A stretch of DNA of 64,000 nucleotides from Streptomyces gossypii (GTDB taxonomy: Bacteria > Actinomycetota > Actinomycetes > Streptomycetales > Streptomycetaceae), in the NCBI RefSeq assembly GCF_025165795.1, contig NZ_JAJAGO010000018.1:62001-126000 (forward strand). The letters run 5' to 3'. Every line of letters begins with the position of its first letter. Position 1 is the first letter of the stretch. Made by a program: the position numbers and the translations under genes. Under the pieces are notes generated by a model, which was given only the letters and a program-made list of their open reading frames with translations, was not told where the DNA came from and ran no database searches. Shown in pieces: positions 4,677 through 60,141 of the stretch.

Positions 4677-6902
4677 TCAGCCTACTTTTTCCAGCGGCGG
4701 GGCGGCGGGCGTGCGGTCGGTGCCCTGTGCCCGCGCCATGCTCCGGGAGGGCCACCAGCTCGCCTTGCCGAGCAGCAGCATCATCGCGGGCAGAATGGTG
4801 ATCCGGATGATGACGGCATCCAGCAGTACGGCGGCCGCCAGGCTGAAGCCCATCTGCTTCATCTCCATGATGTGCAGGCCGACGAAGCTGCCGAAGACGG
4901 TCACCATCACGAGGGCGGCGCTGGTCACCACCCTCGCCGAGCTGCCGACGCCTTCGAGTACGGCTTCGCGGGTCGGCACACCGCGCAGCGCGGCCTCCCT
5001 GATCCGGCTGATGACGAACACCTGGTAGTCCATCGACAGGCCGAAGAGGATCACGAGCAGGAGCAGCGGCACGCGGGAGCCGATCGAGCCGGTGGAGTCG
5101 AAGCCGAGCAGCCCCTCGGCCCAGCTGCCCTGGAAGACGAACACCAGCAGTCCGAGCGAGGCGGCGGCGGAGAGCAGGTTCAGCACCACGCCGACCAGGC
5201 CGAGGACCACGGAGCGGAAGGCCCATACCGTCATGGCGAAGGTGACCAGCAGCAGGGCTCCGATGATCAGTGGCAGCTTCCGCTTCTGGTGGTCGGGGTA
5301 GTCGGCATAGCGGGCGACGTCTCCGGTCACCGCGACGTCGGTGCCGGTCAACGCGCCGACGGTGGCGGGGACATAGGTGTCGCGGACGCGGTCAAGGGAT
5401 TCCTGGGCCTCGTCGGTGCTCACATGGTGCGGCACGGGCAACTCCAGCAGACTGATCCGCTGGTTGGGCGAGGTGGCCAGCTTCGCCTTGCCCGCGAGCA
5501 GCGGGTCGTCCTCGGCACGCTGTCGCAGCTCGCCCAACGCGTCGGCCACCTCGTCGGCTTGGCCGGGCTCCGCGCGTACGAGCACCTGGTGCATGGACTT
5601 CAGTTCCGGGTACGCGGCGTTGAGCCGGTCGTACGTCTGCATGGCGGGGATCTCGCGGGAGTGGATCTCGCGGCCCATGTCGGTCAGGTTGAGACTCAGC
5701 AGCGGAGCGGCGAGAGCGAGCATGAAGGCGACGGCGAGGCCCAGCATGGTGCCCGGCCGCCTGCTCGTGACGCGCAGCGTGGCTGCGGTGAACCGGCCCG
5801 TGTCGCGGCGGGGCCGGGCCGGCTGCTCCGGCTTTCCCCGCTGTTCCGCGCGGGCGGCCTTCCGCTCCGCCCGGCGCTCCGCCCGTATGCCGAGCTTCGC
5901 CAGCAACGCGGGCAGCACCGTCAGCGAACTGGCCACGGCGACGAGGGTGACGACGATCGCGCCGGTCGCGATCGAGGAGAAGATCACGTCGCCCGCGAGG
6001 TACAGCGTCGCGCTGGAGGCGGCGACCGCCATCCCGGAGACGACCACGGCCCGGCCCGAGGTGGCTGCCGCCAGCTCCACCACGGCCTCCGACGTCAGCC
6101 CTCCGCCGGAACGGGACCGCTCTTCCCGGTCCCGCTTGAGATAGAAGAGGGTGTAGTCGACACCGACCGCCAGGCCGATCAGCAGGATGACGTTGGTGCC
6201 GACTCCGTTGTCCGGGAAGGCGTGCGAGGCCAGCATGGACAGGCCGATGGCCCCGGCGATCGAGGAGAGCGCGAGCAGCAGCGGCACCATGGCCATCGCC
6301 ACCGAGCGGAAGACGATCAGCAGCACGATCAGTGTGACGGGCAGCGCGACCATCTCGGTGCGCGCGAGGTCGCTCCCCCGCTGCTCCTCGACACCCTGGC
6401 TGATGGACGGACTGCCGGTCTCCTCCACTCGCACACCGGGATGGCGCTCCCGCACCTCTTCGGTCTGCGCGCGCAGGGGATCGACATGCTTCTTGCCTTC
6501 GAGTTCGGGGCCCTTGAGGGTGACGTCGACGCGGAGGGCCGTGCCGTCGTCCGAACGCACCGGCGGGGCCACTGACCGGACTTCGGGCAGCTTCTCCATC
6601 CGTCGGGTGACGTCCCGCGCGGCGGCGTCGGCGGCGGCTCTGTCCAGTGTGCCGGTGTGGGGCGGCGCGGTGATGAGCACGCGTTCCAGCGGCTTCTGCT
6701 CCAGGCCGCCCTCGGCCGCCAGGGCCTCTCCCCTGCCTGCTTCACCGATGCGGAAGTCCTCGCCGGTGGCGGCGTTCCCGCCGACCGTGATCCCGGCTCC
6801 GAGGCAGAGCGCGACGAAGAGGAACCATCCGGCGATCGCGCGCCAAGGGTGCCCGGCACTCCAGCGGGCCATGCGTACAGGGATATTCGTCATGGCATCC
6901 AT
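4677..6902 (-). CDS. MMPL/RND-family membrane transporter
   Basis: 741-residue MMPL protein with two repeats, each with one N-terminal helix, a large outer loop and five further helices. The family motifs are visible: VGVDYTLFYLKRDREE in the first half and LSMDYQVFVISRIREA in the second. Members export lipids, drugs or siderophores across the cytoplasmic membrane using the proton gradient. The start may be ATG 6902 or 6893 (MTNIPVRMARW); neither has a clear ribosome site. It forms a transcription unit with the kinase at 3487-4671 downstream, so membrane stress or drug sensing is a reasonable guess for the pair. Confidence 0.9.
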   Translation of the reverse strand: MDAMTNIPVRMARWSAGHPWRAIAGWFLFVALCLGAGITVGGNAATGEDFRIGEAGRGEALAAEGGLEQKPLERVLITAPPHTGTLDRAAADAAARDVTRRMEKLPEVRSVAPPVRSDDGTALRVDVTLKGPELEGKKHVDPLRAQTEEVRERHPGVRVEETGSPSISQGVEEQRGSDLARTEMVALPVTLIVLLIVFRSVAMAMVPLLLALSSIAGAIGLSMLASHAFPDNGVGTNVILLIGLAVGVDYTLFYLKRDREERSRSGGGLTSEAVVELAAATSGRAVVVSGMAVAASSATLYLAGDVIFSSIATGAIVVTLVAVASSLTVLPALLAKLGIRAERRAERKAARAEQRGKPEQPARPRRDTGRFTAATLRVTSRRPGTMLGLAVAFMLALAAPLLSLNLTDMGREIHSREIPAMQTYDRLNAAYPELKSMHQVLVRAEPGQADEVADALGELRQRAEDDPLLAGKAKLATSPNQRISLLELPVPHHVSTDEAQESLDRVRDTYVPATVGALTGTDVAVTGDVARYADYPDHQKRKLPLIIGALLLVTFAMTVWAFRSVVLGLVGVVLNLLSAAASLGLLVFVFQGSWAEGLLGFDSTGSIGSRVPLLLLVILFGLSMDYQVFVISRIREAALRGVPTREAVLEGVGSSARVVTSAALVMVTVFGSFVGLHIMEMKQMGFSLAAAVLLDAVIIRITILPAMMLLLGKASWWPSRSMARAQGTDRTPAAPPLEKVG

Positions 6903-49103: not shown

Positions 49104-49140
49104 CCGCTCAGCTTCGAGCACAATGTTGCTCAACTTGCGC
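49104..49140 (+). promoter_or_regulatory. DeoR-type operator candidates before the isomerase operon
   Basis: Repeated half-sites GCTCAGCTTCGAG (49106-49118) and GCTCAACTTGCGC (49128-49140) flank GAGCACAATGTTGCTC, an inverted pair GAGCA/TGCTC with a 6-bp centre. A very similar half-site, TGCTCAAGTTCGAAC, lies before the DeoR gene (53006-53020). Spacing to the ATG at 49168 fits an operator overlapping the promoter. Confidence 0.55.
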
Positions 49141-49167: not shown

Positions 49168-50055
49168 ATGTCGCACACCGCAGACGAGATCGCATCCCAG
49201 CCCGACTGCTGGCGGCAGGCCATCGCGCTGCTGCCGCGCCACGCCGCCGCGCTGCCGAAGTCCGGAGAGCGGGTGGCGGTCATCGGCTGCGGCACCTCAT
49301 GGTTCATGGCCCAGTCGTACGCCGCCCTGCGCGAGGCCGCGGGCCACGGCGTGACCGACGCCTTCGCCGCCTCCGAAGCCCCGCTGGAGCGGGAGTACGA
49401 CCGGGTGGTCGCGCTGACGCGTTCCGGTACCACGACCGAGGTGCTGCACGCCTTGGAGCAGGTACGGGGCCGCATCCGCAGCACCGCCCTGACCGCCGTC
49501 CCGGACTCCCCCGTGACCGCGCTGGCCGACGACACCGTCGTACTCGACTTCGCCGACGAGCGCTCCGTCGTCCAGACGCGCTTCCCCACCACCCAGCTCG
49601 TCCTGCTCCGAGCGCACCTGGGCGAGGACTTGGGCCAGGCGCTTGCGGACGCCTCCACCGCCGTCCGCGAAGCACTGGACCCCGAGGTGCTGGCGGCCTC
49701 GCAGATCACCTTCCTCGGCACCGGCTGGACGAACGGCCTGGCCCTGGAGGCCGCGCTGAAGGTACGCGAGGCCGCCGCCTGGTGGACCGAGGCGTATCCG
49801 GCGATGGAGTACCGGCACGGCCCGATCGGCGTCGCGGCGCCCGGCCGCGCCGTCTGGGCGCTGGGCGGCCTGCCGGACGGACTGGCCGAACAGATCGGGG
49901 CCACCGGTGCCCGCCTGCTGAGGTCCGGGCTCGACCCGCTCGCCGAGATGATCAAGGCGCAGCGGGTTGCGGCGGAGCTGGCGGACGGCCTCGGCCGTGA
50001 CGTCGACAACCCGCCGAACCTCACCCGCTCCGTGGTCCTGGCCCAGGCGTCATGA
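49168..50055 (+). CDS. SIS-domain sugar isomerase/deaminase (AgaS-like)
   Basis: 295 residues from ATG 49168, with AGGAGA upstream. Two SIS repeats: VIGCGTSWFMAQSYAALREA and ALTRSGTTTEVLHALEQV in the first half, and LGTGWTNGLALEAALKVREAAAWWTEAYPAMEYRHGPIG in the second, where the Glu/His segment resembles the AgaS and GlmS active sites. AgaS converts galactosamine-6-phosphate to tagatose-6-phosphate and ammonia. Its genetic link to a tagatose-bisphosphate-type aldolase and a GH114 enzyme supports this role over GlmS or fructosamine functions. It is coupled to the next gene by ATGA. Confidence 0.85.
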   Translation: MSHTADEIASQPDCWRQAIALLPRHAAALPKSGERVAVIGCGTSWFMAQSYAALREAAGHGVTDAFAASEAPLEREYDRVVALTRSGTTTEVLHALEQVRGRIRSTALTAVPDSPVTALADDTVVLDFADERSVVQTRFPTTQLVLLRAHLGEDLGQALADASTAVREALDPEVLAASQITFLGTGWTNGLALEAALKVREAAAWWTEAYPAMEYRHGPIGVAAPGRAVWALGGLPDGLAEQIGATGARLLRSGLDPLAEMIKAQRVAAELADGLGRDVDNPPNLTRSVVLAQAS

Positions 50056-50960
50056 CGCTGCTGGGCACGGCGCGGCTGATGGACGCCGCCGAGGCGGGCG
50101 GCCACGGCACGGGCGCCTTCAACGCCGTACTGCTGGAGCAGCTGGAGGCGGTGCTCGACGGCGCCGCACGGGCCCGGGCGCCGGTGGTCGTGCAGGTCAG
50201 CGAGAACGCGGTCGGCTACCGGGGCGCCCTGCGCCCGCTGGCCGCCGCCGCACTGGAGGCCATCGCCGCCACGGACACCCCCGCCTCCCTGCACCTCGAC
50301 CACGCGACCGAGCCGGAGCTGATCCGTGCGGCCGTCTCCTGCGGCGTGGCCTCGGTGATGTACGACGGCGCGCGGCTGCCGTGGGGCGAGAACCTCGCCA
50401 CCACGCGCGAGATCACCGACTGGTGCCACGAGCGCGGCGTCTGGGTGGAGGCGGAGCTGGGTGAGGTCGGCGGCAAGGACGGCGCCCACGCCCCCGGGGT
50501 GCGCACCGATCCGGGCGAGGCGGCGCGCTTCGTCGCCGAGACGGGGGTGGACGCGCTCGCCGTCGCCGTCGGTTCCTCGCACGCGATGACCGAGCGGCGG
50601 GCGCAGCTCGATCTGGAGCTGATCGGTGCGCTGCGCGAGGCCGTGCCGGTGCCGCTGGTGCTGCACGGCTCCTCCGGCGTGCCCGACCCGGTGCTCGCGG
50701 CGGCCGTCCGGGCCGGTATCCGCAAGGTGAACCTCTCCACGCATCTCAACTCGGTGTTCACCGGCGCGGTGCGGGGCGTCCTCGCGGACCGGCCGGAGCT
50801 TGTCGACCCGAGGCGCTACCTGGGCCCCGCCCGGGAGGCGATGGCGCAGGAGGTGTCGCGGATCCTGGGTGTCCTGGGGGCCGCGCAGTCCGCCGCACGG
50901 GTGGCCGCGCCGTTCGAGGCGCCGGCGGCCGGGGGATCGGCCGGGAAGGCCGCCGGGTGA
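50052..50960 (+). CDS. Class II ketose-bisphosphate aldolase (KbaY/GatY-like)
   Basis: 302 residues, zinc-dependent TIM barrel. The N-terminal GTGAFNAVLLEQLEAVL, first zinc His pair SLHLDHATEPELI, VEAELGEVGGKDGAH (Glu and glycine-rich zinc region), SSHAMTERRAQLD, and phosphate sites LVLHGSSGVPDPVL and IRKVNLSTHLN are in order. Some blocks differ from typical FBP/TBP aldolases (AVGSSHAM where AIGTVHG is usual), so the substrate may be an unusual ketose phosphate. It would split tagatose-1,6-bisphosphate to triose phosphates. Overlaps both neighbours by 4 bp. Confidence 0.85.
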   Translation: MTLLGTARLMDAAEAGGHGTGAFNAVLLEQLEAVLDGAARARAPVVVQVSENAVGYRGALRPLAAAALEAIAATDTPASLHLDHATEPELIRAAVSCGVASVMYDGARLPWGENLATTREITDWCHERGVWVEAELGEVGGKDGAHAPGVRTDPGEAARFVAETGVDALAVAVGSSHAMTERRAQLDLELIGALREAVPVPLVLHGSSGVPDPVLAAAVRAGIRKVNLSTHLNSVFTGAVRGVLADRPELVDPRRYLGPAREAMAQEVSRILGVLGAAQSAARVAAPFEAPAAGGSAGKAAG

Positions 50961-52033
50961 GCGGGCCCCTGGGGGGCGGCGAACTCGCCCGGCTCCGCGC
51001 CCTGCCGCTCGCCGACTACGCCCCACGCCCGGTGCTGTCCGGCCCGGTCACCGAGGTGGAGCGGCCGTGGACGGAGTGCGTGGACGTCCATAACCACCTG
51101 GGCCGCTGGCTGTCCGGGGACGGCGGCTGGATGGTGCCCGACGTGGCGGAGCTGCTGGCGGTGATGGACGGCTGCGGGGTGCGCTGTGTGGTCAATCTGG
51201 ACGGCCGCGTGGGGCGGGACCTGGAGGAGAACCTCGAGCGGTACGACCAGGCCCACCCCGGCCGGTTCCTGACCTTCGCCCAGCTGGACTGGGGCAGGCT
51301 CCGGGAGCCGGACGGTACGGACCTGCTGGTGGCGGATCTGCGGCGGGCCGCCGCCGCCGGCGCCCGGGGGCTCAAGGTCTGGAAGGACCTCGGGCTGACC
51401 GTCACCGACGGCGGCGGTGCGCTGGTGCGGCCCGATGACCCCAGGCTCGCCCCGGTCTTCGCGGAGGCCGGGGCGCTGGGGCTGCCGGTCCTCATCCACA
51501 CGGCCGATCCGCTCGCCTTCTTCGAGCCGCCCGATGCCGCGAACGAGCGGCTGGAGGAGATCCTCGCCAACCCCGACTGGTCGTTCGCCGCCCCGCACCA
51601 CCCGTCCGCCCGTACGCTGCTGGGCGCGCTGGAGTCGCTGGTGGCCGCCCAGCCGGACACGGTGTTCATCGGTGCGCACGCGGGCTGCGCCGAGGATCTG
51701 GGCTGGGTGGGTTCGCTGCTGGAGCGGTATCCGAACTTCCATATCGACATCGCGGGACGGATGGCCGAGCTGGGACGCCGACCGCGCGCCGCCCGCGCGC
51801 TGATCCGGCGGTTCCCGGAGCGGGTGCTGTTCGGCACGGACGCGTTCCCGGTGCACGCGGCGGACTACCGGCTCTACTACCGGTTCCTGGAGAGCGGCGA
51901 CGAGTGCTTCCCGTACGCGCCCGGGGAGCGGGTGCCCCCGCAGGGGCGATGGGACGTCTCCGCGCTGGAACTGCCCGAGGAGGTGCTCGGCGGCCTCTAC
52001 CACGGCAACGCGGCCCGGCTGCTCGGCCTCTGA
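50957..52033 (+). CDS. Amidohydrolase_2-family metal hydrolase
   Basis: 358 residues from GTG 50957. TIM-barrel amidohydrolase: the metal motif VDVHNHLGRW (HxH, residues about 43-52), HTADPLAFF, FIGAHAGCAEDLGW, and GTDAFPVHAADYRLYYRFLE with the last metal Asp. This group (COG2159-like) includes decarboxylases, lactonases and deacetylases, so the reaction is uncertain. Being co-translated with AgaS- and KbaY-like genes, it may act on an amino-sugar derivative (deacetylation or lactone opening). It is not similar to NagA/AgaA. Confidence 0.78.
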   Translation: MSGPLGGGELARLRALPLADYAPRPVLSGPVTEVERPWTECVDVHNHLGRWLSGDGGWMVPDVAELLAVMDGCGVRCVVNLDGRVGRDLEENLERYDQAHPGRFLTFAQLDWGRLREPDGTDLLVADLRRAAAAGARGLKVWKDLGLTVTDGGGALVRPDDPRLAPVFAEAGALGLPVLIHTADPLAFFEPPDAANERLEEILANPDWSFAAPHHPSARTLLGALESLVAAQPDTVFIGAHAGCAEDLGWVGSLLERYPNFHIDIAGRMAELGRRPRAARALIRRFPERVLFGTDAFPVHAADYRLYYRFLESGDECFPYAPGERVPPQGRWDVSALELPEEVLGGLYHGNAARLLGL

Positions 52034-52114
52034 CACCCGGTGCTGTGCCGCCGGACCCGCCCGGCGGCAGCACCCCCCGCCCGGCGGCACGGCACCCGTC
52101 CTTCGGCTGACCCG

Positions 52115-52867
52115 CTACGCGGTGTGCACCCGCACCCCCAGCGCGCGGAGGGCGGCGGTGTCGGCCTCGTCCGCCGCGCTGTCGGTGACGACGGCGCTGA
52201 TCTCGCTGAGCGGGCAGATCTTGGCGAAGGTGACCTTGCCGATCTTGGTGCTGTCCGCGACCACGACGGTGCGGGTGCTGTTGCGCAGGAAAGCGCGGTC
52301 GGTGTGCGCCTCCATCTGGTCGTGCGTGCTGCACCCGCCCCCGGTCGTGAGCCCGTCGACGCCGATGAAGCTGATGTCGATGTGGTACTCGTCCAGCATG
52401 CGTTCGGCGACCGGGCCCACCAGTTCGTAGCTCTGCGAGCGCGCGTTGCCCCCGATGACGACGAGCTGGAGATCCGGCCGCACCACCAGGTCCGCCGCGA
52501 TGTTCACCGCGTTGGTCACCACGGTGATGCCGCTGCGCCCGGCCAGCGCCCGCGCGACCTCGGTGACCGTGGTGCCCCCCGTCATGCCGACCACCGCGCC
52601 GTCCGGCACCAGTTCGGCCGCGGCGGCCGCGATGCGCTGCTTCTGCGCCTGCTGCCTGCCCGCGCGATGCCGCATCGGCAGCTCGGACGGGGCGGTCACC
52701 GCGCCGCCGTGGGTGCGCCGCAACAGGCCCTGTTCGTGCAGCGACCGCAGATCGCGGCGTACCGTCGCACCGGAGACACCCAGCAGGACGGCCAGCTGAT
52801 GGACGTCCGCACTGCCTTCGGAGGACACATGGTCGATGATCCGGTTCAACCGATCACTCTTGAGCAT
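52115..52867 (-). CDS. DeoR-family repressor of the sugar locus
   Basis: 250 residues. The N-terminal HTH reads VHQLAVLLGVSGATVRRDLRSLHEQGLLRRTHGGAV, and the C-terminal DeoRC sensor domain has GMTGGTTVTEVARAL, FIGVDGLTTGGGCST and VVADSTKIGKVTFAKICPL, typical of repressors that bind phosphorylated sugars. It lies between the isomerase/aldolase operon and the GH114/ABC/GH4 operon, so it probably controls both. A TACACT -10 box ends 6 bp before its ATG, so the transcript is likely leaderless. Confidence 0.93.
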   Translation of the reverse strand: MLKSDRLNRIIDHVSSEGSADVHQLAVLLGVSGATVRRDLRSLHEQGLLRRTHGGAVTAPSELPMRHRAGRQQAQKQRIAAAAAELVPDGAVVGMTGGTTVTEVARALAGRSGITVVTNAVNIAADLVVRPDLQLVVIGGNARSQSYELVGPVAERMLDEYHIDISFIGVDGLTTGGGCSTHDQMEAHTDRAFLRNSTRTVVVADSTKIGKVTFAKICPLSEISAVVTDSAADEADTAALRALGVRVHTA

Positions 52868-52873
52868 GCCCGG

Positions 52874-52879
52874 AGTGTA
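52874..52879 (-). promoter_or_regulatory. -10 box of a probably leaderless deoR transcript
   Basis: TACACT on the minus strand with only 6 bases to ATG 52867. No good -35 is seen (AGCCAT at 17 bp). This predicts transcription starting at or near the A of ATG. Confidence 0.5.
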
Positions 52880-53001
52880 GCTCCGATCAGCTGCGCATGG
52901 CTCGGAAAAGCGGGATTGACCAGGCTTTCTCCGGTCTCTCTACGGTTCGGTCGCGGGTCGTGGCAGTCTGCTGCACACCGACGACGCTGCGCATATCAGC
53001 G

Positions 53002-53020
53002 AATGTGCTCAAGTTCGAAC
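53002..53020. promoter_or_regulatory. DeoR-type half-site upstream of deoR and GH114
   Basis: AATGTGCTCAAGTTCGAAC matches the AATGTTGCTCAACTTGCG block before the isomerase operon, apart from a one-base indel and a few changes. It lies in the 331-bp divergent gap (52868-53198) between deoR and GH114, where no gene is seen. A site here would let one repressor control both directions. Confidence 0.5.
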
Positions 53021-53198
53021 TCTTGACGTGCGCGAAATGACGCGCTTGGATCCTGCCAGTGCCTGGGGTGGGAAACCCGGCACCGAAGAGGTGCGCCCAG
53101 CCGGTAGCGGATGCGGTCCGAAGCCCGGCCTGAGTCGCCAGGAGCGCGTAGAGCGTCGTCCGAGGCGGGGCCGTACCCCCGATTGATGGAGCAGTTCC

Positions 53199-54026
53199 AT
53201 GCCTGTCAACCATGCTCTGCGGGGCTGGCGCCCCTGGGCGGCAGCCGCACTGGCGACGGCTGCCCTCGTCACCGCCGGTCTCACCGGCACGTCCTCGAAG
53301 GCCGACGCCGCGGCCAACCCTTCGCTGCCCCCGCCCGGGGCAGGGTTCGACTACCAGATCGGCGGCCCGTACGACCCGCCCGCCGATGTCGAGATCGTCA
53401 GCCGGGACCGCGCGGCGGAGCCCGCCGACGGCCTCTACAACATCTGCTACGTGAACGCCTTCCAGGTCCAGCCCGGCGAGACCCGCGAGTGGCCCACCGA
53501 CCTGCTGCTGCGGGACGAGAACGGTGACGTCGTCATGGACCCGGACTGGAACGAGCCGCTCCTGGACATCGGCACCGCCGGCAAGCGCGAGCGGATCGCC
53601 GACAAGGTCAACGGCTGGACGGACGGCTGTGCCGACAAGGGCTTCGACGCGGTGGAGCCCGACAACTACGACAGCTACACGCGCTCCGAGAACCTGCTCA
53701 CCCCCAGGGACGCCAAGGCGTTCATCACGCTGCTGTCGGCGCACGCGCACTCCCGTGGCCTGGCGATCGGCCAGAAGAACACGGTGGAGCTCGCGGACAG
53801 CCGGGACGAGACCGGCCTGGACTTCGCGGTCGCGGAGGAGTGCGGCGAGTACGAGGAGTGCGGCGGTTACGCGGAGGCCTTCGACGACCACGTCGTGGTG
53901 ATCGAGTACACGGACCGGGGCCTGGAGCGGGCCTGCGCTGACTGGGACGACCGGCTGAGCATCGTCCGCCGGGACGTCGGCGTCACCACGCCGGACAGCG
54001 ACAAGTACGTCCACGCGATCTGCTAG
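53199..54026 (+). CDS. Secreted GH114 endo-alpha-1,4-polygalactosaminidase
   Basis: 275 residues. Signal peptide: basic start (HALRGWRPW), hydrophobic AAAALATAALVTAGLTG, cleavage probably after ADA near residue 37. The GH114 TIM-barrel follows: FDYQIGGPYD, NICYVNAFQ, and the hallmark GFDAVEPDNYDSY with acidic residues 150, 153 and 155. A second acidic site candidate is in VAEECGEYEECGGY (Glu213/Glu214), then IEYTDRG. The family cleaves alpha-1,4-linked galactosamine polymers and fungal galactosaminogalactan. The stop codon lies within the left arm of an inserted inverted-repeat element. Confidence 0.9.
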   Translation: MPVNHALRGWRPWAAAALATAALVTAGLTGTSSKADAAANPSLPPPGAGFDYQIGGPYDPPADVEIVSRDRAAEPADGLYNICYVNAFQVQPGETREWPTDLLLRDENGDVVMDPDWNEPLLDIGTAGKRERIADKVNGWTDGCADKGFDAVEPDNYDSYTRSENLLTPRDAKAFITLLSAHAHSRGLAIGQKNTVELADSRDETGLDFAVAEECGEYEECGGYAEAFDDHVVVIEYTDRGLERACADWDDRLSIVRRDVGVTTPDSDKYVHAIC

Positions 54027-54162
54027 TGCCGTGACCGGCAAGGTCTGCCCGCCAAGGAGCGTCGTCCGACACGGCGAGCATGGGGTCTCCCCGGGCCCGC
54101 AGGGCCGAGGGGACGCGTGCAGGGCGGCGCGACGGAGCAGACCTTGCCGGTCACGGCACTAG
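54023..54162. mobile_element. MITE-like element with 26-bp perfect terminal inverted repeats
   Basis: Arms 54023-54048 (starting CTAGTGCCGTGACC) and 54137-54162 are exact reverse complements. They enclose 88 bp without coding potential; the whole is 140 bp. Both outer ends are CTAG, which may be a 4-bp target duplication. The left CTAG supplies the TAG stop of the GH114 gene. No transposase is inside, so it is a non-autonomous element or an unusual long-range RNA hairpin. Confidence 0.65.
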
Positions 54163-54444
54163 GAGCCGGTCCCTGGCCCAGGCCCAGGCCATGCCCCTTG
54201 GCTGGGCCGACTCCCGGGGAACGGGACCCTGCCGCCCGAGGGCGGTGAACTCACCACTTCGCGACCTCGCCTTTGCGGCCTCGCGACCTTACTGACCGCG
54301 TCGCGCCGGACAGCACGAGCGCCGGACAGCACCCCACAGCACCCACATGGCGGAGACCTCACCCACCCCACGTCCTCCGTCTCCCTTCCCGTCGCCCCCG
54401 TCCCTTCCCTCCCCTCCCCTCCCCTCTTCGTCAAGGAGATCTCG

Positions 54445-55779
54445 ATGACCCGTATCCGGGGTACTCAGCCTCCCCTCCCCCGGCGCCGCCTGCTGCGGGG
54501 TGGCGCGGCCCTCGCGGCCGGGGGCGCCGGAGCCGCCCTCCTCCCCGGCTGCGCGCCGGGCGCCTCCGACGGCGTCAGCGCCGACGGCACCGTGACCGTC
54601 GAGCTCTGGCACGGTCAGAGCGACACCGGCAAGAAGGCCATCGAGAAGCTGGTGGGCGAGTTCAACCGCACGCACCCCCGCATCCGCGTGGACGCGGGCG
54701 GGGGCGGGGTGCTGTCCGACGCCATGCTCCAGAAGGTCACAGCGGCGCTGGCGTCCGGCTCGTATCCGGACATCGCCTATGTCTTCGGCTCCGACCTGGC
54801 GAGCGTCGCCCGCAGCCCCAGCGTCGTGGACCTCGGCTCGGCGCTGCGCGACGGGGAGACCCCCTGGACCAGCTACTGGCAGGCGGCCCGGGACGCGGTC
54901 ACCCTCAACGGCCGGATACGCGCCGCGCCCGCGCTCCTGGACGCGCTAGCCGTCGTCTACAACAAGAAGCTGTTCCGCGAGGCCGGCGTGCCCTTCCCCG
55001 AGGAGGGCTGGACCTGGCCGGAGTTCGTGCGGACCGCCGAGAAGCTCACCGACAGCGGCCGCGGCGTGTTCGGCACCGGCTGGCCCGGCACGGGCGACGA
55101 GGACACCGTGTGGCGGCTCTGGCCGATGATCTGGGACCAGGGCGGCGACGTGATCGCCGACGACGGCAAGGGCATCGGCTTCGCCGACGAGGGCGTACGC
55201 GCGCTGGAGACGCTCGAAGCGCTGGCCGGGGACTCGAGCGTCTACATCGACCCCAAGCCGGGCAGCGAGCAGATGTACCAGGTCTTCCTGGGCGGCCGGA
55301 TGGCGATGGTCGCCACCGGCCCCTGGCAGCTCCCCGACATCCTCGGCGCCGGCATCGACTACGGCGTGGTGCCGCTGCCCACCTACAGCGGAAAGCCCGT
55401 CACCATCTCCGGCCCGGACACCTGGACCGTCTTCGACAACGGCGACGCCCGCTCGCGCGCCGCCGTGGAGTTCGTCAGCTGGATGATCCAGCCGGAACGC
55501 GACGTCCGCTGGGACATCGCCGCCGGCAGCCTCCCGCTGAGCACCGCCACCGAGAGACGGCCGGAATGGCGCGAGCACTCGGAGCGCACGGCGGGCCTGC
55601 CCGTCTTCACCAAGGCCCTCGACAACGCGCGGGTGCGGCCGGTGCACGCCGCCTACCCGCAGATCTCGCAGGCGCTGGGCCAGGCCGTCGTCGCCGTGCT
55701 GCTGGGCCGCAAGAGCCCCGAGGCGGCCCTGCGCGACTGCGCGGACAAGGCCAACGCCGCCCTGCTGATCCCCAGATGA
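54445..55779 (+). CDS. Sugar ABC transporter substrate-binding lipoprotein
   Basis: 444 residues. The N-terminus has twin arginines and a lipobox ALLPGC with Cys36, so it is a lipoprotein, possibly exported by Tat. The mature domain is a family-1 sugar-binding protein (VTVELWHGQSDTGKKAIEKLVGEFNRTHP, then MAMVATGPWQLPDI and FVSWMIQPERDVRWDIAAGSLPL). It is the first gene of the importer operon. In front of it the gap (54163-54444) holds a long pyrimidine-rich tract on the plus strand (CCCTCCCCTCCCCTCCCC). Likely cargo: galactosamine-containing oligosaccharides made by the GH114 enzyme. Confidence 0.92.
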   Translation: MTRIRGTQPPLPRRRLLRGGAALAAGGAGAALLPGCAPGASDGVSADGTVTVELWHGQSDTGKKAIEKLVGEFNRTHPRIRVDAGGGGVLSDAMLQKVTAALASGSYPDIAYVFGSDLASVARSPSVVDLGSALRDGETPWTSYWQAARDAVTLNGRIRAAPALLDALAVVYNKKLFREAGVPFPEEGWTWPEFVRTAEKLTDSGRGVFGTGWPGTGDEDTVWRLWPMIWDQGGDVIADDGKGIGFADEGVRALETLEALAGDSSVYIDPKPGSEQMYQVFLGGRMAMVATGPWQLPDILGAGIDYGVVPLPTYSGKPVTISGPDTWTVFDNGDARSRAAVEFVSWMIQPERDVRWDIAAGSLPLSTATERRPEWREHSERTAGLPVFTKALDNARVRPVHAAYPQISQALGQAVVAVLLGRKSPEAALRDCADKANAALLIPR

Positions 55780-55790
55780 GGAAGGCCGTC

Positions 55791-56801
55791 ATGTCGACAG
55801 TGCCCCGCGCGGTCACCCTTGAGGCGCGCACCGCTCCACCGGACAAGAACCGCCCGGACGACCTGGACGCCCCGGACGGTTCCGGCCGCCCGGCCCGGCC
55901 CTCCGGCCCGACGCGCCGCCGGATCCGCCGGGAGAGCGCCACCGCCTGGGCGTTCGTCGGCCCGTCGGTGCTGATCATCCTCGGGCTGGCGATCGTCCCC
56001 GTCGTCTGGTCCCTGCTGCTGTCCTTCCGTGCCGACGACCTGGTCACACCCGGCCGCTGGGTCGGACTGGACAACTACCGGGCCCTGGCCGAGGACCCCA
56101 ACTTCCACACCGCCGTGGGGAACACCCTGCTCTACGCGGCGCTTTTCGTACCGCTGAGCCTGGTGGGCGGTCTCGCGCTCGCGCTGGCGCTGAACCGCCG
56201 CATCCGCCTCATCGGCTTCTACCGCACCCTGATCTTCATCCCGTTCGTCGTCTCCGCGACCGCGCAGGGCGTGCTGTTCTCGTTCATCCTCGACCCCGAG
56301 TTCGGCGCGGCCAACTCGCTGCTGCACAAGCTGGGCATCTCGCGCCAGGGCTTCCTGAGCGACCCGGACCAGGCGCTGTACCTGCTGGTGGGGATCTCGC
56401 TGTGGAGCGGGATCGGCTTCTGTGTCGTCGTGTACCTCGCCGCGCTCCAGGACGTGCCGCCGGAGCTCGTCGAATCCGCCCGGCTGGACGGCGCCGGACG
56501 GTGGCGGGTGCTGCGCCACATCACCCTGCCCACCCTCACCCCGGTCAGCGTGTTCCTGGTGCTGTGGCAGCTCATCCAGGCGCTCCAGGTCTTCGACCTG
56601 ATCTATGTGACCACCAAGGGCGGCCCGCTCGGGTCGACGACCGTCATCGTCTACTTCGTCTGGGAGCAGGCGTTCCGCACCTTCACCGCGGGGTACGGCG
56701 CGGCGGCCGCGTACGTCCTCGCCCTCGCCCTGCTGATCGCCGGTGCCGCGCTCCAAGTGCAGCGGCGCTACCGGGCCCGTACGGAAGGAGCCGTCCGATG
56801 A
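55791..56801 (+). CDS. Sugar ABC transporter permease 1 (MalF/UgpA type)
   Basis: 336 residues from ATG 55791 (AGGAAGG six bases upstream; ATG 55776 overlapping the previous stop is an alternative). A roughly 50-residue hydrophilic tail precedes six membrane helices (AWAFVGPSVLIILGLAIVPVVW is the first). The EAA loop that docks on the ATPase reads ELVESARLDGAGRWRVLRHI. No ATPase gene is in the operon, so the shared MsiK-type ATPase common in Streptomyces must drive it. Confidence 0.93.
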   Translation: MSTVPRAVTLEARTAPPDKNRPDDLDAPDGSGRPARPSGPTRRRIRRESATAWAFVGPSVLIILGLAIVPVVWSLLLSFRADDLVTPGRWVGLDNYRALAEDPNFHTAVGNTLLYAALFVPLSLVGGLALALALNRRIRLIGFYRTLIFIPFVVSATAQGVLFSFILDPEFGAANSLLHKLGISRQGFLSDPDQALYLLVGISLWSGIGFCVVVYLAALQDVPPELVESARLDGAGRWRVLRHITLPTLTPVSVFLVLWQLIQALQVFDLIYVTTKGGPLGSTTVIVYFVWEQAFRTFTAGYGAAAAYVLALALLIAGAALQVQRRYRARTEGAVR

Positions 56802-57688
56802 CCGCCTCCATGGCAGTGGCCGACACCCCGGTGGAACCGTCGGCGGCTCAGCGGCGGGGCGGGAAACGGCGGCGGTGGCTGCCGTTCAGCCCCTGGCATC
56901 TGCTGCTCGCGCCGCTGGCGCTCGGCTTCGCCCTGCCGCTGCTGTGGCTGCTGCTCACCTCGGTGATGAGCGACGCCGAGATCAACCGCTTCCCGCCCGC
57001 GCTCTGGCCCGACGGCATCGACCTGGGCGGCTACCGCTACGTGCTGGGCAACGCGATGTTCCCCCGCTGGTTCGCCAACTCGTTCATCGTCTCGTCGGTG
57101 GCGGTGGCGTCGAATCTGCTGCTCGGGGCGCTGGGCGGTTACGCGTTCGCCCGGATGCGGTTCGCGGGGTCTCGGCTGCTGCTCGGGCTGATGCTGGCGA
57201 CCATGATCATCCCGTTCCAGCTCACGATGATCCCCACCTTCCTGGTGATGAAGGAGCTGGGGCTGATCGACACCCTGGGCGCGCTCATCGTGCCCGCCCT
57301 GGTCACCCCGTTCGCCGTGTTCCTCTTCCGGCAGTTCTTCCTCTCGCTCCCACGTGAGATGGAGGAGGCGGCGTGGATCGACGGCTGCTCCCGGCTCCGG
57401 GTGCTGGTCTCCATCATCATGCCGCTGGCCCGTCCGGCGCTGGCCACCGTCGCCGTGCTGACCTTCCTGGCCACCTGGAACGACCTGACCTGGCCGCTCA
57501 TCGCCATCAACCACGACACCCAGTACACGCTCCAGCTGGGGCTGACGACCTTCCAGGGGCAGCACCACACCCGCTGGTCGGCGGTCATGGCGGGCAACGT
57601 GCTCACGGTACTGCCGGTACTCGCCGCGTTCCTGTTCGCCCAGAAGACCTTCATCCAGTCGCTGACCTCCAGCGGGCTGAAGGGCTAG
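56798..57688 (+). CDS. Sugar ABC transporter permease 2 (MalG/UgpE type)
   Basis: 296 residues from ATG 56798, overlapping permease 1 by 4 bp (ATGA). Six helices, with the first near WHLLLAPLALGFALPLLWLLL. The EAA loop is EMEEAAWIDGCSRLRVLVSI, and the C-terminus ends IQSLTSSGLKG as in the MalG group, where GAVKG-like ends are typical. It pairs with permease 1 to form the channel. Confidence 0.94.
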   Translation: MTASMAVADTPVEPSAAQRRGGKRRRWLPFSPWHLLLAPLALGFALPLLWLLLTSVMSDAEINRFPPALWPDGIDLGGYRYVLGNAMFPRWFANSFIVSSVAVASNLLLGALGGYAFARMRFAGSRLLLGLMLATMIIPFQLTMIPTFLVMKELGLIDTLGALIVPALVTPFAVFLFRQFFLSLPREMEEAAWIDGCSRLRVLVSIIMPLARPALATVAVLTFLATWNDLTWPLIAINHDTQYTLQLGLTTFQGQHHTRWSAVMAGNVLTVLPVLAAFLFAQKTFIQSLTSSGLKG

Positions 57689-57754
57689 TGCCTGTTTCTC
57701 GGACCGTCCCGTCCCTCCCCCTGTTTCGCCCTCCCTCGCACCAGGAAGCGCACC

Positions 57755-58834
57755 ATGTCTCCCCCTTTTGATCTGCTCGTGATCGGCGACGCCAATCCGG
57801 ACGTGGTGCTCGGCCCCGTGCCCCGCACCCTCGCCTTCGGCCAGCGCGAACAGCTGGTCGAGCACGCGAGCCTCGTCCTCGGCGGCTCGGCCGCGATCAT
57901 GGCCTGCGGCGCCGCCCGGCTCGGGCTGCGCGTGGCGTTCGCCGGACGGGTCGGCGACGACCCGGCGGGCGCGTTCGTCCGCCGGTCCCTCACGGACCGG
58001 GGTGTCGACGTCACGGCCCTGGCCACCGACCCCGTACTGCCCACCCCGCTCACCACCGTCGTCCTCGCGGACGGCGGCGACCGTGCCATCCTCACCGCGC
58101 CCGGCACGCTGGCCTCCACCGGCCCCGCGGACGTGCCCGCCGCACTGCTGGCCGAGGTGCGGCACGTGCACGCGGCGTCCTTCTTCCTGCTGCCCCGGCT
58201 CGCCGCACGGCTGCACGAGGTGTTCGCCCTCGCCCACACACATGGTGCGAGCACCTCGCTGGACACCAACGACGATCCGGACCAGCGGTGGGACGCGGCG
58301 CTGCTCGGGCCGGTGCTCGGCGTCACCGACGTCCTGCTGCCGAACGCGGCCGAGGCCCGTGCGCTGGCCGCTGCCCTGGCGGAGGGTCCGGCGGGCGGGG
58401 CGGCGGGCGGCTCGGGAGGTGACACGACGGGTGACGCGGCGGGTGACGCGGCGGGTGACGCGGCGCAGGAACTGTCCGAGGTGGCCGCCGCGCTGTCCGC
58501 CCGCGGGCCGCTGACCGTCGTCAAGGACGGCGCCGACGGCGCACTCGCGCACGACGGCACCCGTACGCTGCGCGCCGCGCCGCCCGCCGTCGAGGCGGTC
58601 GACACCGTCGGCGCGGGGGACAGCTTCGATGCCGGATATGTCGCCGCCGTCCTGCGCGGCCTGGACCCCTCGTCCGCACTGGAGTTCGCCGCCGCCTGCG
58701 GAGCCCTCTCCACCCGCGCCCACGGCGGCACGGCCGCCCAGCCCACCTGGGACGAAGCCTCCTCCGCCGCCTCAGCCACCGTCGCCACCGCCGCCGCCAC
58801 CGCCACCGCTTCGAACCGAAGGATCTCCCGATGA
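57755..58834 (+). CDS. PfkB-family carbohydrate kinase
   Basis: 359 residues. Motif 1 is VLGGSAAIMACGAARLGLRVAFAGRVGDD (with GG at residue about 43), and motif 2 is DTVGAGDSFDAGYVAAVL with the catalytic Asp. LDTNDDPDQRW and LLPNAAEARAL are typical of this family. A Gly/Asp/Ala-rich loop encoded by a 12-bp tandem repeat lies at about residues 222-238, and the C-terminus is an Ala/Thr/Ser-rich tail. In context it may phosphorylate galactosamine or tagatose-6-phosphate. ATGA overlap with the GH4 gene. Confidence 0.88.
   Translation: MSPPFDLLVIGDANPDVVLGPVPRTLAFGQREQLVEHASLVLGGSAAIMACGAARLGLRVAFAGRVGDDPAGAFVRRSLTDRGVDVTALATDPVLPTPLTTVVLADGGDRAILTAPGTLASTGPADVPAALLAEVRHVHAASFFLLPRLAARLHEVFALAHTHGASTSLDTNDDPDQRWDAALLGPVLGVTDVLLPNAAEARALAAALAEGPAGGAAGGSGGDTTGDAAGDAAGDAAQELSEVAAALSARGPLTVVKDGADGALAHDGTRTLRAAPPAVEAVDTVGAGDSFDAGYVAAVLRGLDPSSALEFAAACGALSTRAHGGTAAQPTWDEASSAASATVATAAATATASNRRISR
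58418..58465 (+). repeat. Four 12-bp tandem repeats inside the PfkB gene
   Basis: Unit GGTGACGCGGCG, three exact copies (58430-58465) preceded by one variant (GGTGACACGACG, 58418-58429). In frame they encode a GDAA-type repeat, so copy-number change would lengthen or shorten a surface loop by four residues without a frameshift. Confidence 0.85.
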
Positions 58835-60141
58835 CCAGTACCAGGATCACCTTTGTGGGCGCGGGCAGCGTCGTCTTCACCCAGGGCCTGCTGGCCGACC
58901 TGTTCGCCTTCCCCGAACTGCGCGGCGCCCACATCGCCCTGCACGACATCGACCCCGAACGGCTCGCCACGGCCGAGGGCGCCGCCCGCCGGATCGCCGC
59001 CGAACTCGGCGCCGAACCCGTCATCAGCGCCCACCCGGACCGGCGGGGCGCCCTGGAGGGCGCCGACTTCGTCATCAACATCATCCAGGTCGGCATGAAC
59101 GAGGCGACCCGCACCGACTTCGCCGTCCCGGCCCGCTACGGGGTGCGCCAGACGATCGGCGACACGCTGGGCACCGGCGGCATCTTCCGCGCGCTGCGCA
59201 CCTTCCCCGTACTCCGCGCACTGGCCGAGGACATGGCCGAGGTGTGCCCCGACGCGCTGCTGCTGAACTACACGAACCCGATGGCGATGAACGCCCTGTA
59301 CCTGCACCGGATCGCGCCCCAGCTCAAGGTCGTCGGCCTGTGCCACTCGGTGTACTGGACGATGAACGACCTCGCGGAGCTGGTCGGCGTCCCCTTCGAG
59401 GAGGTCTCCTACCTCGCGGCCGGGGTGAATCACCAGGCGTGGGTGCTGCGCTTCGAACGGGACGGGCAGGACCTGTATCCGCTGCTCGACCAGGCGATCG
59501 AGAAGGACGCCGAACTGCGCCGGCGCGTCCGGGTGGACATGTACCGCAGGCTCGGCCACTACCCCACCGAGACCAGCGAGCACTCCTCGGAATACGTCCC
59601 CTGGTATCTGCACCACGACAGCGAGGTGGAGCGGCTGCGGCTGCCCGTCGGCGCGTACCTGGAGATCATCGAGGAGAACGCAGCCAGCTACGAGCGGACC
59701 CGCGAGGCCCTGGCCACCGGCGCCTCACTGCCGGTGGAGGGCACCTTGGAGTACGCCCCGCAGATCATCCACAGCATGGTCACCGGCACCCCGCGCACGG
59801 TCTACGGCAACGTGCCCAACCGGGGGCTGATCGACAACCTGCCGGCCGACTCCGTCGTCGAAGTGCCCTGCCTCGTCGACGCGCTGGGCGTCCAGCCCAC
59901 CAGGACCGGCGCGCTCCCGCCGCAGTGCGCCGCCCTGAACCGGGCCTACATCGGGGTCAACGACCTCGTCGTACGGGCTGCCACCGACGGCGAACCGCGC
60001 CACGTCCGGCACGCCGCCATGGCGGACCCGGCCACCGCCGCGGCGCTGCCGGTCGAACGCATCTGGGAGCTGTGCGACGACCTGGTACGCGCCCACGGCG
60101 ACCTCCTCCAGCCCGAACTGCGGGAGGTACTGGGCAGCTAG
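58831..60141 (+). CDS. GH4-family alpha-galactosidase-like enzyme (MelA type)
   Basis: 436 residues. The NAD site is FVGAGSVVFTQGLLADL. The metal-binding Cys is in VGLCHSVYWT and the His in AGVNHQAWVLRF. NYTNPMAMN and PTETSEHSSEYVPWY complete the MelA-type pattern. CHS rather than CNxP indicates action on unphosphorylated alpha-glycosides, as in MelA, not 6-phosphoglycosides. GH4 works by NAD-dependent oxidation and elimination and includes enzymes for galactosides and N-acetylgalactosaminides. It is cytoplasmic (no signal). It would break down imported oligosaccharides to monosaccharides for the PfkB kinase. Confidence 0.9.
   Translation: MTSTRITFVGAGSVVFTQGLLADLFAFPELRGAHIALHDIDPERLATAEGAARRIAAELGAEPVISAHPDRRGALEGADFVINIIQVGMNEATRTDFAVPARYGVRQTIGDTLGTGGIFRALRTFPVLRALAEDMAEVCPDALLLNYTNPMAMNALYLHRIAPQLKVVGLCHSVYWTMNDLAELVGVPFEEVSYLAAGVNHQAWVLRFERDGQDLYPLLDQAIEKDAELRRRVRVDMYRRLGHYPTETSEHSSEYVPWYLHHDSEVERLRLPVGAYLEIIEENAASYERTREALATGASLPVEGTLEYAPQIIHSMVTGTPRTVYGNVPNRGLIDNLPADSVVEVPCLVDALGVQPTRTGALPPQCAALNRAYIGVNDLVVRAATDGEPRHVRHAAMADPATAAALPVERIWELCDDLVRAHGDLLQPELREVLGS

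Follow-up and report, generated by a model that had tools for sequence, protein, structure and literature searches.

The locus at positions 49168-60141 of a 64,000-nt stretch of Streptomyces gossypii DNA (contig NZ_JAJAGO010000018.1, positions 62,001 to 126,000; G000:C10:62001-126000 in our numbering; the whole stretch is referred to hereafter as the window) is probably, as a whole, a galactosamine-polymer utilisation system controlled in part by a structured leader RNA. It contains genes for a secreted glycoside hydrolase of family 114 (GH114), an ATP-binding cassette (ABC) importer, a PfkB-family kinase, a glycoside hydrolase of family 4 (GH4), a SIS-domain protein, a class II aldolase, an amidohydrolase and a DeoR-family repressor. 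The original prediction, made from the sequence alone, had listed these genes, and its inventory and positions are borne out: the frames are open, rich in G or C at third codon positions (GC3-rich) and in the places given, and their families were matched in Pfam. It made no mention of the leader, which was found in the intergenic stretch between the DeoR and GH114 genes (52868-53198).

In the proposed pathway, the GH114 protein (53199..54026, plus strand; PF03537, 1.8e-51) would be secreted and cut an alpha-1,4-galactosamine polymer. The oligomers would be taken up by the importer, represented by a sugar-binding lipoprotein (54445..55779; PF01547, 1.7e-38) and two permeases with approximate starts (55791..56801 and 56759..57688; PF00528, 2.2e-17 and 1.6e-16). 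The GH4 protein (58831..60141), a putative intracellular exo-alpha-galactosaminidase, would free galactosamine from the oligomer ends, and the PfkB-family protein (57755..58834; PF00294, 2.3e-46), a proposed amino-sugar 6-kinase, would phosphorylate it at C6. The genes for the binding protein, permeases, PfkB and GH4 run in one direction, in the order of their coordinates. The SIS-domain protein (49168..50055, with an alternative earlier start possible at 49123; PF01380, 1.1e-11) would act as a galactosamine-6-phosphate deaminase/isomerase and yield tagatose-6-phosphate, from which a LacC/Pfk-type kinase encoded elsewhere would make the bisphosphate. The aldolase (50052..50960; PF01116, 3.5e-80), a candidate tagatose-1,6-bisphosphate aldolase, would then split it. 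The SIS, aldolase and amidohydrolase (50957..52033; PF04909, 1.2e-25) frames overlap head to tail, and all genes named so far are on the plus strand; the AgaR-like DeoR gene (52115..52867; PF00455/PF08220) is on the minus strand, divergent to the GH114 gene, and its product would repress transcription. The leader, about 100 nt long, would control GH114 after transcription start by binding a metabolite made by the cassette, e.g. galactosamine-6-phosphate; in relatives it would do so for the importer or for a gene of a LacC-like kinase. Gene identities, conserved linkage, the GH114 catalytic residues and the conservation, covariation and gene association of the RNA come out of the computation itself; the enzymatic activities, the substrate, the RNA ligand and the on or off direction of its control are inferred, and we consider the catabolic reading of the locus probable. 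Neither an ABC ATPase nor a second (tagatose-6-phosphate) kinase was seen among the frames of the locus, so both must come from elsewhere. A LacC-like kinase is encoded elsewhere in the genome (G000:C3:160183) and is 50% identical to the LacC-like kinase of a related locus, L179. Immediately 5' of this gene, and likewise outside the locus, lies a gene for a PF01979 amidohydrolase (G000:C3:159067-161139).

The leader is a three-way junction (53085..53180, plus strand) in which P1 pairs 53090-53098 with 53168-53177, P2 occupies about 53101-53128 and P3 about 53136-53167. A 5' hairpin, P0 (GTGCC/GGCAC; 53059..53083), precedes it, and a putative promoter of the leader/GH114 transcript (TTGACG, 17 nt, TTGGAT; 53023..53051, all on the plus strand) was recognised by eye against TTGACA/TTTACT conserved in other loci. 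Words 5' of GH114 are alike in many loci. A pattern built on them has one occurrence in the window and is present in 71 of 213 loci; none of 100 shuffles of the window contained it, which carries little weight because the pattern was devised post hoc. With a looser expression there were 91 matches, of which one was plainly due to chance and which counted several genomes twice. From an alignment of 69 copies less than 96% alike, out of 89, RNAalifold returned the junction of P1, P2 and P3 with near-invariant CCC/GGG, CCG/CGG and CGCC/GGCG pairs. Of 1376 cells, 97.1% were paired and 7 of 20 pairs were changed on both sides; all five pairing measures exceeded 500 of 500 shuffles and six of six slid controls. 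An alignment fitted to the covariance model, which leans to the model and includes two weak matches, gave 9 of 20 pairs changed on both sides. When helices were anchored, pairing in 65 copies was 96.4% for P1 and 72.7% for the P2 stem, compared to 93.2% and 57.8% in shuffles, and none of 500 shuffles reached either value; the same was true of both helices with 18 copies. In most Streptomyces copies P1 reads GGUACG/CGUACC; it is GACGC/GCGUC in loci of the Kribbella type and GAUC/GAUC in those of the Actinoplanes type. Relative to its shuffles, the P0 region has on average a lower folding energy (a mean z of -1.35 across 40 rows, with 17 rows under -1.5). In the fold the ribosome-binding word tends to be paired, with an average of 0.35 unpaired over 80 of 84 rows. 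The leader had no match in Rfam 15 at the gathering score, in the window or in 8 loci, and permissive matches (E 0.27-9.9) were far under the gathering scores; a known riboswitch was rejected on these grounds.

At E ≤ 1 the covariance model had a single match in the genome, the window copy itself, which is in the training set (G000:C10:115074-115184, window 53074-53184; 83 bits). Strict filters yielded 72 leader copies, that of the window included, in 54 of 295 genomes of the genus. A GH114 gene lay no more than 400 bp downstream on the same strand in 62 of the 72, and for another 7 the next mapped gene was the binding-protein gene of the cassette, 68-721 bp on and on the same strand. One copy is at a contig end (G192), one is 74 bp before a GH4 remnant (G157; tblastn, 68% over 88 aa) and one is near SIS and aldolase genes (G306). 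A GH4 remnant beside this last, solitary copy was considered and not upheld by tblastn; the cassette genes nearby are those for SIS and aldolase. In the genus the RNA is present in all 34 genomes that combine GH4 with GH114, compared to 19 of 114 with GH114 only. This distribution fits a ligand that only the cassette makes inside the cell, a fit weakened by shared descent and by the make-up of the training set.

The leader was also present in related loci. The actinomycete GH4 loci named in this work are the best 80 of 573 confirmed in a scan by GH4 alignment, and 31 of them contained 34 leader matches (E ≤ 2e-5), 26 with GH114. In three Actinoplanes relatives (L171, L174, L175) the leader precedes a LacC-like (tagatose-6-phosphate kinase-like) gene. 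Strong matches occurred in 22 of 40 regions around unlinked GH114 genes, and two unlinked GH114 genes had weak matches in the right place (26.7 bits, E 0.001; 19.3 bits, E 0.065), perhaps decayed copies. A class-wide search of 394 genomes with strict filters found the leader in 6 genomes, all of the source genus, while searches of retrieved loci found it also in Amycolatopsis, Nonomuraea, Kribbella and Actinoplanes relatives. In L071, from another family of the order, a leader (6656-6774, minus strand) lies upstream of a DeoR-family gene on the same strand and not directly before GH114. A structured leader with covariation is found, then, before genes of one pathway. It is very probably a real cis-regulatory RNA, apparently undescribed, and somewhat more probably than not a riboswitch.

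Membership of the GH114 protein in its family is clear, with 175 bits against PF03537 (cut-off 27) and an alignment to Ega3 at 4.5e-14. Its catalytic pair, the Asp of VEPDN (D155) and the Glu of AEEC (E213), is invariant in 40 homologs. The pair is 58 residues apart, equal to the spacing in Ega3, whose catalytic residues are numbered 189 and 247 (PMC12054363). The AlphaFold model (predicted local distance difference test, pLDDT, 96.7) matched Ega3 best by fold (TMq 0.80, E 2.7e-16), ahead of GH191 (0.64-0.68) and PelA of GH166 (0.63-0.66). On this evidence we propose that the protein is an endo-alpha-1,4-galactosaminidase. GH114 has been placed with glycoside hydrolase families for fungal wall polysaccharides (PMC7922503).

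Assignments of the other proteins were less uniform. The GH4 protein scored 591.6 bits against the MelA subfamily model NF011657 (cut-off 486). The SIS protein, described as AgaS-like in the original prediction, is not of the AgaS family: it scored 32 bits against TIGR02815, whose cut-off is 529, and its nearest relatives are GlmS (89 bits) and GlmD (78 bits), with no NCBIfam model over its cut-off and a best PDB match to 2cb0 (1e-17). A NagS-like dehydratase was rejected on the GlmD/GlmS likeness; NagS is placed near MurQ in PMC12680351. The aldolase, named KbaY-like in the original prediction, is a class II enzyme whose best PDB match is the tagatose-bisphosphate aldolase AgaY (1gvf, 1.1e-53), but its scores against the KbaY, GatY and tag_bisphos_ald models (176-228 bits) were below the tagatose-specific cut-offs (383-542), and the model passed was that for generic ketose-bisphosphate aldolases, cbbA (219.6 vs 215.6). 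For the DeoR protein the best NCBIfam model was AgaR (NF040755; 194 bits, under the cut-off of 260). The amidohydrolase had no solved-structure match at E ≤ 0.001, and to call it a deacetylase or a lactonase would be a guess; PF01979, the AgaA-type deacetylase family, was absent from the ten locus proteins in Pfam. A tRNA-Ala(cgc) reported by ARAGORN at 51754-51849, within the amidohydrolase frame, is probably a false call.

Conservation in the genus was assessed in the same 295 genomes, with relatives counted at E ≤ 1e-100 for GH4, E ≤ 1e-20 for GH114 and E ≤ 1e-60 for the amidohydrolase. GH4 was present in 39 genomes and GH114 in 148. Among the GH114 matches listed, one lay within 10 kb of GH4 in at least 31 of the 39 GH4-bearing genomes, and a chance neighbourhood was rejected on this count. 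In 24 of 38 retrieved GH4 regions, which are those other than the window and some of which are cut by contig ends, the genes for GH114, binding protein, permease, permease, PfkB and GH4 followed in that order on one strand; GH114 was present in 30 of these regions and DeoR on the opposite strand in 11. SIS was present in 3 of the 38 (L051, L060, L066; 4 of 39 counting the window) and the aldolase in 2 (L051, L060; 3 of 39). SIS orthologs, often adjoining a DeoR gene, were found somewhere in 35 of 40 cassette genomes searched (E ≤ 1e-40), and aldolase orthologs in all 40. The amidohydrolase was found in 1 of 295 genomes, that of the window. Across the genus, conservation holds for the GH114/GH4 link and does not extend to SIS, aldolase and amidohydrolase. 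On a GH114 tree of 72 rows, 32 linked to GH4 and 40 unlinked, the label changed 11 times, at least 9 of them forced by well supported branches, compared to 24 in shuffles. The linkage is clustered but has changed repeatedly. For two rows the label "unlinked" is doubtful: L131, from a genome that has a cassette, sits at the edge of a contig, and some 16 kb separate L109 from a cassette GH4.

In other actinomycetes the related cassettes have different partners. Among the 69 loci of at least 17 kb in the best 80, profile thresholds placed the importer in 65, PfkB in 47, SIS in 28, the aldolase in 32, DeoR in 39 and the amidohydrolase in 7; amidohydrolase homologs occurred in 9 of the 80, and six that were aligned were 55-63% identical. 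GH114 was present in 35 of the 80, as the Streptomyces type in 31 and as an Ega3-like type in 4. The Ega3-like genes stand beside GH4 cassettes in Nonomuraea, Actinoallomurus and Hamadaea (L157 5715-6623, L180 7961-9007, L189 8823-9899, L199 8068-9024); L180 was recognised by Pfam, and L157, L189 and L199 by a profile built from the four, so that they match by construction. By sequence they are another type of GH114, associated with this same cassette. Accessory proteins were searched by phmmer with one representative each, and the representatives alone were scanned against libraries. KbaZ was found in 10 of the 80 loci, an AgaS-family protein in 10, a NagK-like BadF kinase in 9 (mostly Mycolicibacterium relatives) and a LacC/1-PFK-like kinase in 17, of which 15 also hold a separate window-type PfkB. 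The KbaZ representative passes TIGR02810 (638.6 vs 568.8); the AgaS-family representative scored 455 against a cut-off of 529. In the 69 loci, BadF never occurred with a window-type PfkB (0 of 9 vs 47 of 60 others; Fisher 8.8e-6, kinship uncorrected, with 7 of the 9 BadF loci mycobacterial), nor AgaS with a window-type SIS (0 of 9 vs 28 of 60 others; p 0.009, kinship uncorrected). Because of this mutual exclusion we read PfkB and BadF as unlike proteins with one role, that of phosphorylating the free amino sugar, and SIS and AgaS as sharing that of deamination; the LacC-like kinases would act on tagatose-6-phosphate.

The KbaZ, AgaS-family and NagK-like partners suggest that a galacto-configured amino sugar is channelled into the tagatose route and, with the GH114/GH4 linkage, give indirect support to the galactosamine-polymer pathway that had been predicted. 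A complete and conserved locus is not supported: within the genus SIS and aldolase are rarely linked to the cassette and the amidohydrolase is private to the window, and the ATPase and second kinase are not in the locus. Importer, GH4, SIS, aldolase and kinase do occur together in 24 of the best 80 loci, 9 of these with GH114. Two oxidoreductase-like groups were seen near cassettes (L134, L138, L139, L143, L148, L151, L156, L165, L174, L199), and one member of each (L138, L151) belongs to the Gfo/Idh/MocA family in Pfam.

Several observations weigh against a galactosamine-polymer regulon under leader control. Eight of the 39 GH4 genomes have no linked GH114 (none listed in 5, distant in 2 and on other contigs in G245), and 8 of the 38 retrieved regions, some cut by contig ends, are without it; in 5 further regions that do have GH114 there is no PfkB between permease and GH4. 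SIS and aldolase are mostly unlinked to the cassette in the genus, the search for SIS orthologs (E ≤ 1e-40) found none in 5 of the 40 cassette genomes, and the window's SIS protein is outside the AgaS family. We know of no GH4 that acts on galactosamine. The leader is absent before 33 of 95 GH114 genes checked; these 95 are the 86 best listed and nine lower ones chosen for RNA matches or for a cassette in the genome, so that the 62 with a leader are not a random sample. It is also absent before GH114 in 9 of the 35 GH114-bearing loci of the best 80, and from all 20 regions around stand-alone SIS genes at E ≤ 1. With the 7 distant copies, 10 of 500 shuffles reached the observed pairing of P1 and 6 of 500 that of P2. 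The RNA model was trained on copies from loci around GH4, GH114 and SIS, and since these are related sequences with kinship uncorrected, the shuffles overstate significance. Folding energies of single sequences were mostly ordinary (z -1.37, -0.96, -0.60; -0.46, -1.94, -0.10).

One alternative is that the cassette uses ordinary alpha-galactosides, with GH4 a plain MelA alpha-galactosidase and GH114 only loosening a galactose-containing polymer such as galactosaminogalactan. The GH4 score over the MelA cut-off agrees with this, and the fungal polymer does contain galactose as well. Galactose, however, requires neither a SIS deaminase/isomerase nor a tagatose aldolase, and the presence of KbaZ, AgaS-family and NagK-like proteins at other GH4 loci suggests an amino sugar; we regard plain alpha-galactoside use as unlikely. 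We give considerably more weight, though still not the larger share, to a real galactosamine pathway with a natural substrate of other than fungal origin. The locus would suit bacterial Pel or the actinomycetes' own galactosamine polymers as well as it does the fungal polymer: galactosamine polysaccharides in Streptomyces walls and an endogalactosaminidase of S. griseus are cited in PMC7229062, and Env-GH191, of family GH191, is active on Pel (PMC12054363). The sequence does not discriminate among polymers, and the proposed mechanism is compatible with any of these substrates.

A comparable, minority share of our confidence goes to a leader that binds a protein, e.g. one of the pathway, or that serves in processing or stability and is not a riboswitch. 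Its restriction to a single pathway, its narrow distribution and the lack of a terminator in the promoter/terminator scan suit such an element. On the other side, a junction of about 100 nt that has invariant unpaired words and heads several transcripts of a single regulon is a typical picture for RNAs that bind metabolites. A precedent for protein binding is the actinobacterial msiK leader, for which it has been proposed (PMC2864571). That the conserved stretch is a DNA element, such as an operator cluster, is suggested by several loci in which it lies close to the promoter region of the divergent DeoR gene, but appears very improbable: it shares the strand of the next gene in the 62 cases with GH114 and the 7 with the binding-protein gene, its stems carry compensatory changes, and it is also found ahead of unlinked GH114 genes whose surroundings have no mapped DeoR gene.

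An inverted repeat of 29 nt lies between GH114 and the importer (arms 54020-54048 and 54137-54165); its arms are 97% complementary and 88 nt apart. Twenty-four nucleotides of an arm matched only two loci cut from the same place and none from other places, and the repeat is possibly a terminator or the trace of a mobile element. No convincing DeoR operator word was common to the three intergenic regions of the window, and the consensus scan for promoters and terminators found nothing.

If the galactosamine-polymer reading is correct, the locus connects bacterial GH114 with an uptake operon, with a catabolic route and with regulators. It would also be a lead to enzymes that attack fungal galactosaminogalactan and bacterial Pel matrices, and GH114 would be a candidate family for the endogalactosaminidase that was described from S. 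griseus in 1975 with no sequence attached. Searches of the open-licence literature, a scope in which absence is weak evidence, found no riboswitch tied to GH114 and no candidate structured RNA for Streptomyces glycoside hydrolases; those combining riboswitch, galactosamine and actinobacteria gave papers that were unrelated, as judged by title only, and those combining riboswitch and galactosaminidase gave Fusobacterium only. The leader is confined, as far as searched, to the regulon, and if it binds a ligand it would constitute a new class of riboswitch and would directly reveal the pathway's sugar. The fullest form of the proposal is that a new riboswitch class for galactosamine-6-phosphate or a near relative runs the polygalactosamine regulon together with an AgaR-like DeoR protein, and that the GH4 protein is the first exo-alpha-galactosaminidase of its family; this combination we put forward tentatively, as falling somewhat short of an even chance.

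Among known systems, the Aga pathway for N-acetylgalactosamine and galactosamine in other bacteria comprises AgaR, AgaS, KbaYZ and PfkB. The locus shares its logic, from amino sugar phosphate through tagatose-6-phosphate to a class II aldolase, and has a similar regulator and aldolase. It differs in its ABC importer, in entry through GH114 and GH4, in a GlmD/GlmS-like SIS protein instead of AgaS, in its first step, for which a PfkB or a NagK-like kinase is proposed in the locus and related cassettes, and in having no PF01979 deacetylase among its proteins. The GH4 protein belongs to the same subfamily as the MelA-type alpha-galactosidases, over the curated cut-off, but stands in an amino-sugar context; to our knowledge, activity on galactosamine would be new for GH4. 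The glmS ribozyme is a leader RNA before a sugar gene. The window leader is like it, and like the msiK leader (PMC2864571), in preceding sugar genes, and differs in matching no Rfam 15 family at the gathering score. According to PMC12054363, the only bacterial GH114 enzyme to have been characterised, and that in part, is one from Pseudomonas sp. 881, studied as a native preparation, whereas production of bacterial GH114 in E. coli gave no soluble protein; the Pseudomonas enzyme shares with the window protein its bacterial origin and its family. An endogalactosaminidase activity was reported, with no sequence, from the same genus, in S. griseus (Reissig 1975, as cited in PMC7229062 and PMC12054363). 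A further counterpart is Ega3 of Aspergillus fumigatus (6OJ1), which the window GH114 resembles in family, fold, catalytic Asp and Glu and their spacing; it is only 24% identical to Ega3 over the fold alignment and differs further in being bacterial and tied to an uptake operon and an RNA leader.

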